Below are positions 17,249-19,879 of a stretch of 39,668 nt of DNA, one piece after another. The notes below the pieces were generated by a model. The model made no database searches and was not told where the DNA came from. It was given only the letters and a program-made list of their open reading frames with translations. Position 1 is the stretch's first letter, and the number at the start of each line of letters is the position of its first letter. A program made the position numbers and the translations under genes. Origin of the DNA: Ignavibacteriaceae bacterium (GTDB lineage Bacteria > Bacteroidota > Ignavibacteria > Ignavibacteriales > Ignavibacteriaceae); the NCBI GenBank assembly GCA_013359345.1, contig JABWCA010000004.1:1-39668 (forward strand). The letters are read 5' to 3'.

Positions 17249-17941
17249 ATGTCTGTTTATTTAGTTGTTGGCGGTTCAGGAGGAATTGGTAACGCCCTTG
17301 TTAAAAATTTACTTGGAAAAGGTCATAAAGTATACTCCGTTTCAAGAAATATTCCTGAGATTGCTCATCCTGAACTGATCAGCTTTAGCTGTGATGTTCT
17401 TTCTCCGGATCCTCTGCCTGAGATCAAAGAACCGCTTAACGGACTTGTATACGCACCGGGATCTGTAAATCTGCGTCCGTTCACCTCACTAAAGCAGACA
17501 GATTTCCAGAATGACATGAGCATTAACCTATACGGAGCTGTGAGAGTGCTGCAGAATTATCTGCCCGCACTTAAGAAAGCGGGTGATGCATCGGTGGTGA
17601 TGTTCAGTACGGTAGCCGTACAGCTTGGCCTGCCTTATCATGCATCTGTGGCGGCTGCCAAAGGTGCGGTTGAAGGATTAATCAGATCTCTTGCCGCTGA
17701 GTTTGCACCGGCAATCAGGGTTAACGGGATAGCACCCTCACTGACTGATACACAGCTGGCCGGCAAACTCCTCAATACCGATGAAAAAAGAAAAATGGCT
17801 GCAGAACGACATCCGCTTAAGAGATACGGATCTGCAGATGAAATTGCAGAAACCGCCGCATTCCTTCTTTCACCCGCCGGCTCATGGATAACCGGACAGA
17901 TTATTCATGCCGACGGAGGTTTATCTTCATTAAAGGTGTGA
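17249..17941 (+). CDS. SDR-family protein lacking the canonical catalytic tyrosine
   Basis: 230-residue Rossmann protein of the short-chain dehydrogenase family. The cofactor motif is GGSGGIGNA (residues 8-16), and YAPG at 68-71 fills the place of the usual NNAG. The end GSWITGQIIHADGG is classic FabG-like. The active site departs from the rule: aligning on K138 of the YxxxK motif, the tyrosine position is V134 (SVAAAKGAVEGL) and the catalytic serine position is T121. A tyrosine (Y130) sits four residues earlier. Related sequences with HASVAAAKGAVEG-type motifs are, as I recall, a recurring subgroup, so this is probably not an assembly error. Substrate unknown. It is the first gene of a co-directional run; the next gene starts 1 base after its stop. 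Confidence 0.9.
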   Translation: MSVYLVVGGSGGIGNALVKNLLGKGHKVYSVSRNIPEIAHPELISFSCDVLSPDPLPEIKEPLNGLVYAPGSVNLRPFTSLKQTDFQNDMSINLYGAVRVLQNYLPALKKAGDASVVMFSTVAVQLGLPYHASVAAAKGAVEGLIRSLAAEFAPAIRVNGIAPSLTDTQLAGKLLNTDEKRKMAAERHPLKRYGSADEIAETAAFLLSPAGSWITGQIIHADGGLSSLKV

Positions 17942-17942
17942 T

Positions 17943-18524
17943 ATGAAGACTGCCGTTATCTTCATGATTTTCCTTGGCACACTTGCTGCGCAGGAGATTG
18001 CAACAGCTGAAAAGGCAATTGCAATTGTAAATGGCACTAATGCTTCCGGAATGCTTGTTCTTGGAGGCTGGGCACTGAGCAATATGCTGGTGAGCGGTTC
18101 CTCATACTTTGCCACCTCTGGTGAAGCCAGGCAGTTTCATGCAATGAATGCAATGTGGAATCTGGTGAATTTCGGGATTGCGGCCTTCGGATATTCTGCC
18201 GCTGTTAATGCGGTGCCTTCAGATAAACTTAGCGATGCACTGAAGCAATCGGCCGAAATGCAGAATATACTTCTTCTGAATGCCGGCCTGGATGTTGCAT
18301 ACATCGTAACAGGATTTCTGCTGAGAGAAAAAGGTAAAACCTCTGAAAAATACAGCGAAATATTAAAGGGATACGGAAGTTCTCTGGTGCTGCAGGGCTC
18401 ATTCCTTCTTATTTTTGATACTATTCTTTATTTTGTGCATCAGAATAATTTTACTGAAATCTTAAAAATGGCCGATCTGAGTTTTTCATTAAATACTATT
18501 AACCTAAGGATACCGCTTAATTGA
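17943..18524 (+). CDS. hypothetical multi-pass membrane protein
   Basis: 193 residues that I cannot assign firmly. After a hydrophobic start (possibly a signal peptide ending at LAAQ) there are about four membrane segments: MLVLGGWALSNMLVSGSSYF, WNLVNFGIAAFGYSA, NILLLNAGLDVAYIVTGFLL and LVLQGSFLLIFDTILYFV. The pattern resembles the DUF6992-type membrane proteins of Bacteroidota, but that is from memory. It begins 1 base after the SDR stop, and its stop codon (TGA at 18522) overlaps the TTG start of the next gene, so translation is probably coupled. Confidence 0.7.
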   Translation: MKTAVIFMIFLGTLAAQEIATAEKAIAIVNGTNASGMLVLGGWALSNMLVSGSSYFATSGEARQFHAMNAMWNLVNFGIAAFGYSAAVNAVPSDKLSDALKQSAEMQNILLLNAGLDVAYIVTGFLLREKGKTSEKYSEILKGYGSSLVLQGSFLLIFDTILYFVHQNNFTEILKMADLSFSLNTINLRIPLN

Positions 18525-18667
18525 AAAAAACTGATCTCTCCGTAAAAATATGTGCCGTCTGCGGACGTGAGTTTGCATGGAGAAAGAAGTGGCGCAAAGT
18601 ATGGCACGAGGTTAAATACTGCAGTGAAAGATGCAGATCTGATAAAATGCGGGCAAAAACAAATTGA
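18521..18667 (+). CDS. DUF2256 zinc-binding small protein
   Basis: 48 residues from TTG 18521 to TGA 18667. It carries the DUF2256 pattern: KICAVCGREFAWRKKW, then VWHEVKYCSERCRSDK. Four cysteines (C11, C14, C34, C38) should bind one zinc as a treble-clef-like knuckle. DUF2256 genes are widespread, short and often missed; function unknown, often near photolyase or flavoprotein genes. The TTG start overlaps the preceding stop, and its own TGA overlaps the TTG start of the flavoprotein gene downstream. No ATG exists in a suitable place, so the TTG is needed. It is absent from a 60-codon filtered gene list because of its size. Confidence 0.85.
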   Translation: MKKTDLSVKICAVCGREFAWRKKWRKVWHEVKYCSERCRSDKMRAKTN

Positions 18668-19305
18668 TAAGCAAATCTGAGTATGAGATCCCTCAATATA
18701 TTCCTGAGATTTACAGTAATACATCTCAGGTTTTTGACAGCATAATTAAAGCTCTTGCGGAGGGGGTTACAAACCGGAGACACCCTTTTCACACACCTGT
18801 TATTTCAACAATAAACGGAGATAAGCCGGAATTAAGAACGGTTGTTCTCAGAGACTTTAACAAAGATCTGATGGAGATTCTGATTCACTCCGATTACAGA
18901 ACAGGCAAGGTTTCACAGCTAAAACTCAATCCTAACACTTCATTTTTATTTTATGACAGCAATTCTGCGGTTCAGGTAAGAGCAAGAGGAATTTCATTTG
19001 TGCATTACACGGATGATACCGCATTTGAGCGCTGGCAGATATCAAAACCTGCGAGCAGGAGATGCTATCTTACAACTGTTGATCCGGGAGAGGAGATACC
19101 GGTGCCCGATTCAACACTTCCTGCTGATTATAAAAATATCACACCCTCACTTACAGAAAGTGAATCAGGCTATAAGAATTTCTGTGTTATCAGAACGGTA
19201 ATAAATGAGATAGACTGGCTGTATCTTCATAAGTCGGGCAATATCAGGGCTGCTTTTAAGATTAAAGAGGGGAAACTTCACCACTCGTCATGGCTTGCAC
19301 CATGA
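18664..19305 (+). CDS. pyridoxamine 5'-phosphate oxidase-like FMN-binding protein
   Basis: 213 residues, cytoplasmic split-barrel flavoprotein. Recognisable pieces are the N-terminal helix with an RRHPFHTPVIST segment, PELRTVVLRDF (FMN-phosphate strand), IHSDYRTGKVSQLKLNP, and FERWQISKPASRRCYLT followed by WLYLHKSGNIRAAF near the C-terminus. The layout resembles the PNPOx-like group with the Alr4036-type FMN domain rather than true PdxH, so the pyridoxal role is not certain. It starts at TTG 18664 overlapping the DUF2256 stop. The first residues read ISKSEYEIPQY. The CYTH gene follows after 25 bases. Confidence 0.83.
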   Translation: MISKSEYEIPQYIPEIYSNTSQVFDSIIKALAEGVTNRRHPFHTPVISTINGDKPELRTVVLRDFNKDLMEILIHSDYRTGKVSQLKLNPNTSFLFYDSNSAVQVRARGISFVHYTDDTAFERWQISKPASRRCYLTTVDPGEEIPVPDSTLPADYKNITPSLTESESGYKNFCVIRTVINEIDWLYLHKSGNIRAAFKIKEGKLHHSSWLAP

Positions 19306-19330: not shown

Positions 19331-19879
19331 ATGTCACATATAAATTACGAGTTTAAGGCATCTGCCACTGATATTAATGAGCTTGAAAATAAATTCAAAG
19401 GACTGAACCCGGAGTTCAGGGGAACAGACCACCAGACAGATACTTATTTTAACGTGCCTGAAGGGAGAATGAAACTGAGGGAAGGAAATATTGAAAATTC
19501 TCTTATTTTCTACGAAAGGGAGAATCTGAAGGATGCGAAAGTTTCAAGAATTCTTCTGTACAGGCATAATCCTGATCCGGTCTTAAAGGAAATACTCACA
19601 AAGGTTAATGGCATAAAAGCGGTGGTGAAAAAGGAGAGGAAAATATATTTTATTGATAATGTAAAGTTTCATTTTGATAATGTTGAAGGGCTCGGATCTT
19701 TCATTGAAGTTGAGGCAATTGACGCAAACGGCGATCTGGGAATTGAGAAAATCAGGGAACAATGCTTATTCTACGCAAATTTTTTCGGGATCAGGGAGAG
19801 TGATTATATCAGTCATTCATACAGTGATCTTATAGTGGGTATTAGCAGGCAGTGCAAAAATAATTCTCTTTCTGATTGA
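19331..19879 (+). CDS. CYTH-domain protein (class IV adenylate cyclase/triphosphatase type)
   Basis: 182 residues forming the triphosphate tunnel fold. The N-terminal signature is YEFKAS (a reduced form of the ExExK metal motif), followed by TDTYFNVPEGRMKLREG, VKKERKIYFIDNVKFHFD and LGSFIEVEAI, the strands that carry the charged tunnel residues. Such proteins either make cAMP (CyaB type), hydrolyse thiamine triphosphate or inorganic triphosphate, or are uncharacterised; sequence alone does not decide. An AAGGA ribosome site lies about 9 bases before the ATG. A weak terminator follows, closing the run that started at 17249. Confidence 0.85.
   Translation: MSHINYEFKASATDINELENKFKGLNPEFRGTDHQTDTYFNVPEGRMKLREGNIENSLIFYERENLKDAKVSRILLYRHNPDPVLKEILTKVNGIKAVVKKERKIYFIDNVKFHFDNVEGLGSFIEVEAIDANGDLGIEKIREQCLFYANFFGIRESDYISHSYSDLIVGISRQCKNNSLSD

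Follow-up and report, generated by a model that had tools for sequence, protein, structure and literature searches.

Judged from its sequence, the SDR encoded in the window (the whole 39,668-nucleotide stretch of an Ignavibacteriaceae contig analysed here) belongs to a conserved, widespread and Tyr-less clade of SDRs that carry a histidine seven residues before the catalytic lysine ('HxxVxxxK', hereafter His-type). Our leading interpretation, to which we give slightly less than even weight, is that the protein is catalytically active as an NAD(P)H-dependent reductase, with His131, aided by Lys138 and Thr121, standing in for the catalytic tyrosine, and that it serves light-stress and photolyase metabolism, possibly acting on pterins. 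SDRs are recognised by the hallmark tyrosine of YxxxK, and a large Tyr-less clade with histidine at the enoyl-reductase site would test how replaceable the proton donor is; the clade also points to a reductase without an assigned role in bacterial light-response gene clusters. No description of the HxxVxxxK motif was found among the Tyr-less or Tyr-shifted SDRs of the open-licence literature, a weak hint of novelty.

The window SDR (Table 1) matched the Pfam families adh_short_C2 and adh_short, while the best 25 of the 210 NCBIfam models matched all scored below their own cut-offs, so that no named subfamily was found there for it. An AlphaFold2 model built from a 36-row alignment had a mean pLDDT of 93.3 and a classical SDR fold. 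When the whole model was compared with known structures, the matches were classical SDRs with Z scores of 31-33, led by 4e4y (Z 32.9, 1.4 Å over 225 residues; rows within 1 Z count as ties), and the top Foldseek row was 5ff9. FabI does not occur among the 50 structural matches listed, to which no weight attaches. With a predicted Rossmann fold and the Gly-rich NAD(P)-binding motif in its sequence, the protein is a member of the SDR superfamily by these signs. The model, built without cofactor, confirms the fold. A helix begins at residue 132 of the model, which would make H131 the residue immediately preceding the catalytic helix. The initial annotation had described the cofactor motif (GGSGGIG) and the C-terminal FabG-like motif (ITGQxxxxDGG) as intact, and both are; Asn93, the catalytic Asn of helix 4, is also present. 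The active-site stretch VVMFSTVAVQLGLPYHASVAAAKGAVEGL contains T121, Y130, H131, V134 and K138, and the codon of T121 (17609-17611) falls just beyond the range that the initial annotation had quoted (17621-17701).

Table 1. Coordinates of the His-type SDR, its key residues and the genes that follow it in the window.
Feature	Positions	Strand	Basis
His-type SDR (HxxVxxxK family), 230 aa	17249..17941	+	ORF and translation, ATG start; Pfam adh_short_C2 1.2e-41; AlphaFold2 model
VGGSGGIG, Gly-rich NAD(P)-binding motif, residues 7-14	17267..17290	+	G8 133/137, G12 132/137, G14 133/137
S120-T121; T121 at the catalytic-serine position, K minus 17	17606..17611	+	T 117 / S 20 at 121; S120 132/137
His131, K minus 7, proposed stand-in for the catalytic Tyr	17639..17641	+	H 137/137; aligned with the K-7 Tyr of E. 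coli FabI and the FabL-like protein
Val134, YxxxK tyrosine position	17648..17650	+	V 79, I 57, T 1, Tyr 0 (n = 137)
Lys138, catalytic lysine retained	17660..17662	+	K 137/137
R187-H188-P189, conserved loop signature	17807..17815	+	R 116, H 133, P 128 (n = 137)
DUF6992 protein, 193 aa, 1 bp after the SDR	17943..18524	+	Pfam PF22503 5.7e-41
FMN split-barrel (PPOX/Pyridox_oxase_2) protein, TTG start listed, uncertain	18664..19305	+	PF12766 6.8e-12; NCBIfam PPOX_FMN_cyano 4.9e-10, below cut-off
CYTH-domain (class IV cyclase / triphosphate-tunnel) protein	19331..19879	+	PF01928 2e-13; TIGR00318 cyaB 3e-12, below cut-off

The placement of the active-site residues rests on two sets of alignments. HMMER alignments to 5ff9, 5feu and 6y4d, the best sequence matches of the window SDR, and to 2nm0 were free of gaps from the serine region to the lysine, and in them V134 faces the YxxxK tyrosine and K138 the lysine. 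The same placement came from a MAFFT alignment that included E. coli FabG and FabI as well as six SDRs from the same genome: V134 fell at the tyrosine position, where five of the six SDRs have Tyr. The corresponding strings are GGQANYAAAK in FabG, IPNYNVMGLAK in FabI, IPYYGAVSAAK in the sixth own-genome SDR (L004) and LPYHASVAAAK in the window; the tyrosine thus stands at K-4 in FabG and at K-7 in FabI and L004, and the window protein has His at K-7 and Val at K-4. From FabI (NYNVMGLAK) through the FabL-like protein (YYGAVSAAK) to the window SDR (YHASVAAAK) the stretches align without gaps, with Tyr, Tyr and His at K-7. Measured against classical SDRs, the window protein therefore has the catalytic Lys and a Ser/Thr at K-17 and lacks the YxxxK Tyr. 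The assignment of V134, T121 and K138 made in the initial annotation is thus borne out, and a conserved tyrosine in the normal active-site place, the finding that would have spoken against it, did not appear in these alignments. In the plant reductases 5ff9 and 6y4d, a K-7 His accompanies the normal Tyr at K-4 (GHSIYSSTK and GHSMYSATK), and this co-existence makes a path from Tyr plus His to His alone plausible. A fifth HMMER alignment, to PDB 1o5i, a protein named as a 3-oxoacyl-ACP reductase, shows Ser in place of the Tyr and Arg in place of the Lys, so that 1o5i is an atypical SDR too. L004 (positions 1246-2070 of its locus, own-genome contig C144) is a FabL-like enoyl reductase whose best NCBIfam match was FabL (3.9e-45, below cut-off); the DNA just 3' of it reads like the start of a thioredoxin (WCGPC).

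To see how far the motif extends, we collected loci with a match of E <= 1e-20 to the window protein or to its relative L147, which gave 164 loci and 137 distinct sequences including that of the window. E. coli fabG and fabI (L157, L158), the plasmid clusters L181-L184 and the own-genome SDRs L002-L007 (five with Tyr at K-4, L004 with Tyr at K-7) were excluded from the 137. Because recruitment was based on similarity to family members, the set speaks for constancy inside the family; it does not measure the rarity of the motif across SDRs as a whole. H131, K138, G71 and N159 were present in all 137 sequences, D222 in 136, H188 in 133 and S120 in 132, and Arg33, after beta-2, in 110. In the Gly-rich motif, the rows without Gly at positions 8, 12 or 14 are gaps save for one Thr at position 12. 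Position 134 was never Tyr; this pattern, with H131 and K138 invariant, goes far beyond chance and makes the loss of the tyrosine a trait of the family. The catalytic Asn at position 93 was N in 112 sequences and Q in 25, and NNAG was changed to Y(A/C)PG in most of 36 aligned members. Threonine at the serine position, singled out in the initial annotation, is not alarming on this alignment, the position being T or S throughout the family. The initial annotation had also expected standard SDR chemistry to be lost unless Y130 or H131 had taken over. Of these two candidates H131 survives the comparison and Y130 does not: position 130 is F in 92 sequences, Y in only 25 and N in 12, with other residues in the remainder, so Y130 cannot be a shared catalytic residue and we rejected it as the replacement. 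The most distant group of the family (11 loci) is only 32-36% identical to the window protein; the invariance of H131 and K138 across such divergent relatives, alongside the variability of position 130, supports His131 as the candidate that was never lost.

Relatives were separated from other SDRs by a gap in score in the protein searches. Among 247 Bacteroidota genomes, 61 matched the window SDR at E <= 1e-30 (52 at <= 6.3e-45 and nine at 6.6e-35 to 9.6e-31), and the next-best SDR of its own genome, at 9.7e-21, is of the Tyr type. In the phylum of Halochromatium (Pseudomonadota), six of 299 genomes matched at E <= 1e-32, with at most nine candidates scored per genome. The best 80 matches among GTDB genomes were mostly Bacteroidota; others carried the labels Cellvibrio, Halochromatium, Nitrotoga, Verrucomicrobiales and Opitutae, and the majority of those non-Bacteroidota records are metagenome bins and possibly contaminated. 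Plasmids of Spirosoma and Mesorhizobium carry a relative, labelled just 'SDR family oxidoreductase' in two annotated plasmid records. A further plasmid match by similarity came from Methylobacterium bullatum. That the window gene is a local accident, a decayed SDR copy in a single genome, has nothing in its favour beyond the odd motif itself, and we give it next to no credence: the frame is open, the next gene follows 1 bp on, and the same motif recurs in 137 distinct sequences, whose source records bear labels that include Bacteroidota, Pseudomonadota and Verrucomicrobiota. A decayed copy was rejected on this last ground.

A FastTree phylogeny of 67 sequences placed all His-type proteins in one clade (support 0.994) beside Tyr-type FabG-like proteins, with FabI and the FabL-like L004 outside it; the tree was rooted on FabI by choice and holds only eight outgroup sequences, so it shows monophyly and not the exact ancestor. 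This bears on the possibility that the family performs a different chemistry, either C=C (ene) reduction like FabI/FabL or a redox-neutral isomerisation or tautomerisation with His131 as general base. Such a role, which we hold to be improbable, would fit the position of the histidine at the enoyl-reductase Tyr site and the hydrophobic residue at K-4, as in FabI (Met) and the FabL-like protein (Val). However, the clade lies next to FabG-type SDRs rather than with FabI or the FabL-like protein, so that any likeness would be convergent, and no fatty-acid-synthesis gene occurs among the 17 named recurrent neighbour clusters (of 40 listed). Descent from FabI/FabL was likewise considered and is not supported by this small tree with its eight outgroup sequences.

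The defining proton-transfer residue is absent from all 137 sequences while the cofactor motif and the fold are retained, a combination that would also suit an SDR devoid of catalysis, whose NAD(P) binding would serve sensing, scaffolding or the regulation of light-stress and photolyase genes. We consider this quite unlikely, since Lys138 and His131 are kept without exception, Ser or Thr at 121 in all, N159 in all and H188 in all but four; in a pseudoenzyme, one would expect some of them to have been lost across sequences so divergent. We think it probable that the window SDR is a functional enzyme of light stress and not a degraded gene copy. In the mechanism that we propose, NAD(P)H would be bound as usual, as the conserved motifs suggest, and Arg33 points to NADPH as the probable cofactor. 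By analogy with classical SDRs, Lys138 would hold the nicotinamide ribose and tune the proton relay, and Thr121 would play its customary part. His131, invariant and placed as in FabI, would donate a proton or polarise the substrate oxygen as the cofactor delivers hydride. A donor histidine is not required for activity, however, because eugenol synthase works through its lysine without the tyrosine: according to the portions of PMC1991597 available to us, that enzyme lacks the SDR Tyr, needs Lys132, and has the p-hydroxyl of its substrate at the site of the Tyr hydroxyl. The window SDR could similarly be led by Lys138, with a substrate hydroxyl or enol in the place of the Tyr hydroxyl and His131 merely binding substrate, and the K-7 histidine that stands alongside a normal Tyr in 5ff9 and 6y4d indicates that the position can serve another role. 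We rate this as distinctly improbable; a histidine never replaced in 137 sequences is under stricter constraint than would be expected of a mere substrate contact.

To characterise the genomic setting of the family, we clustered the ORFs of 80 genome-contig loci and the window; of 40 recurrent clusters listed, 17 were named, each from one representative, and the peroxidase and CarH matches lie below the NCBIfam cut-offs. The counts that follow are lower bounds because many contigs are truncated. A photolyase/DASH cryptochrome cluster was found near the SDR in at least 31 of the 80 loci, a flavin-reductase-like protein in at least 23, the DPRP photolyase-related protein in at least 21, FolE and an NAD-binding/DUF2867 protein in at least 19 each, and PTPS in at least eight. 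TspO and a TetR_C_23 protein each occurred in at least 14, a glutathione-peroxidase-like protein in at least 12 and a CarH-like MerR protein in at least seven. Another cluster, present in at least 19 of the 80 loci, we take to be an SRPBCC-like protein, although its representative has no Pfam match, and one in at least seven is presumably phytoene-synthase-like. A small TIGR03643/DUF2805 protein (e.g. L051 14293-14658) lies near photolyases and the SDR in at least 23 loci. Across a wider count of 119 loci, 52 had a photolyase-type gene and 67 showed none, some of the loci being duplicates and some cut contigs. In the most distant group, a photolyase/cryptochrome-type gene lies within ~100 bp of the SDR and on the same strand in nine of 11 loci (L161-L163, L166-L168, L173, L147 and L152); it was not found beside the SDR in L164 and L165.

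The flavin-reductase-like gene lies -38 to +32 bp from the SDR in 15 of its 23 loci, and its product may work with the SDR. This PF01613 protein (e.g. L043 4960-5589 and 22 other loci) has no NCBIfam match. FolE is encoded on the strand of the SDR in 19 of 19 loci and directly upstream with a gap of <= 6 bp in seven; two apparent FolE-SDR overlaps of ~125 bp seem to reflect ORF starts set too far upstream. Eight loci read PTPS, usually FolE, and then the SDR, and all eight SDR-linked PTPS proteins have the form CxxxxxHGHNY, which we take to be the signature of the tetrahydrobiopterin-type PTPS and not of QueD.

The window SDR itself adjoins DUF6992, PPOX and CYTH genes, with 139 bp between the first and second of these and 25 bp between the second and third, and no photolyase- or pterin-type neighbour occurs here. 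The packed run of a zinc protein, a flavoprotein and a triphosphate-tunnel protein that the initial annotation had proposed downstream holds for its last two members (Pyridox_oxase_2 and CYTH); the second gene of the run proved to be DUF6992, with no Pfam or NCBIfam sign of a zinc protein. A DUF6992 homologue also lies 5' of the SDR in L043 and L054. Eight SDR loci came from genomes of the same taxonomic family. The flavin-reductase-like gene adjoins the SDR in three of them (L138, L142 and L143); L137 has a glutathione peroxidase and, further on, FolE; L144 has TIGR03643; L140, a short contig, has a CarH-like regulator ~2 kb away; and L139 and L141 have none of these. A locus from the same order (L145) also has the flavin-reductase-like gene. 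Away from the SDR, the window's own genome holds one DPRP gene (C13), two PF00875 photolyase-type genes (C204 and C205) and, on C411, a PTPS-FolE pair whose PTPS has the CxxxxxHGHNY form, near phenylalanine 4-monooxygenase. In this last locus (L188, 479-4003) PTPS and FolE are adjacent, and the monooxygenase gene lies ~1.7 kb off on the same strand with one opposite-strand gene between; it is a likely reduced-pterin locus. These photolyase-type genes and the PTPS-FolE locus suggest that the organism probably makes and uses reduced pterin.

Co-occurrence across the 247 Bacteroidota genomes was then compared; the tests treat genomes as independent, which, phylogeny being ignored, they are not. 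DPRP was present in 37 of the 52 genomes with the SDR (E <= 6.3e-45) versus 46 of the 195 without it (odds ratio 8, Fisher p 4e-10), and 15 of the 52 lacked DPRP. PTPS presence was uninformative as a marker, since 237 of the 247 genomes have one, and second copies were used instead: two copies occurred in 12 of the 52 genomes with the SDR versus six of the 195 without (p 1.7e-5), though in one of the six (G129) the two copies score equally and may stem from duplication in the assembly. The SDR shares a strand with one PTPS copy in G116, G151 and G228, at a distance of ~790-960 bp that would accommodate a folE.

The enzyme would act in light or photo-oxidative stress metabolism. Sepiapterin reductase fills the slot after PTPS in tetrahydrobiopterin synthesis, and our most specific guess is that the SDR would perform a step of reduced-pterin synthesis in the corresponding place; a pterin as substrate is a guess from gene order, and a rather doubtful one. 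Several observations count against the main reading: DPRP is missing from 15 of the 52 SDR-bearing Bacteroidota genomes and a photolyase-type gene from 67 of the 119 loci, PTPS adjoins the SDR in just eight of 80 loci, position 93 is Gln in 25 of 137 sequences, and the window copy has no photolyase- or pterin-type neighbour. As described in part of PMC9852545, bacterial (6-4) photolyases carry FAD and a lumazine antenna, and other photolyases use folate, deazaflavin, FAD or FMN, which makes pterin or flavin supply a reasonable role for the neighbours. The boldest form of our proposal, which we regard as unlikely, is a new catalytic type of SDR in which His wholly replaces Tyr and which carries out the final reduction in a light-induced pathway to a pterin (or a flavin/antenna cofactor) serving bacterial photolyases and cryptochromes.

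SDRs have been placed in comparable light-response settings. The singlet-oxygen regulon of Rhodobacter, as far as the available text of PMC7074977 and PMC7380195 goes, contains phrA, folE2 and the SDR RSP_1087, and deletion of RSP_1087 left furan fatty acids unchanged; this SDR belongs to a photo-oxidative-stress operon (RpoE/ChrR). We considered that the family might be the SDR of the R. sphaeroides RSP1087-1091 operon and dropped the idea: the comparable Azospirillum cluster (L182) is flanked by an SDR with the ordinary YGPTK motif, unlike the family, so no link to RSP1087 is claimed and the published expression data serve as analogy only. No SDR was listed around the other three comparable clusters (L181, L183 and L184), for which the gene table is incomplete. 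In Vibrio cholerae, blue light induces photolyases via MerR and ChrR, with no SDR named in the excerpted text of PMC5241685. In Pseudomonas mendocina, the accessible part of PMC9758184 describes a light-induced cluster with phrB and the short-chain dehydrogenase PME6630, and a second locus in which folM, folE and folX form a light-responsive operon.

Compared with classical SDRs (FabG and reductases of the tropinone and noroxomaritidine type), the window protein is alike in fold, in GGSGGIG, in the Lys and Ser/Thr residues and in ITGQ...DGG, whereas the family lacks the YxxxK Tyr, has an invariant His at K-7 and mostly replaces NNAG with Y(A/C)PG. For the divergent SDRs FabI and FabL, the portion of PMC10864336 available gives the YxxMxxxK motif and describes what Tyr156 and Lys163 do in FabI. 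The family resembles FabI and FabL in having its key residue at K-7 and a hydrophobic residue at K-4, but Tyr at K-7 (YxxMxxxK / Yx6K) is absent from it, His taking its place in all 137 sequences; it also has Ser/Thr at K-17 where FabI has Tyr, and it forms a separate clade. The likeness of the family to sepiapterin reductase and FolM, the pterin-reducing SDRs, is one of gene order, the family gene following PTPS and/or FolE in some loci; both of those enzymes carry the catalytic Tyr. A Tyr-less parallel is offered by eugenol synthase and other PIP-family reductases, active NADPH reductases that keep the Lys without the Tyr (PMC1991597, in part), so that loss of the tyrosine is by itself not new; they belong to a different, isoflavone-reductase-like subfamily and, in the text available from that source, are not described as having HxxVxxxK.
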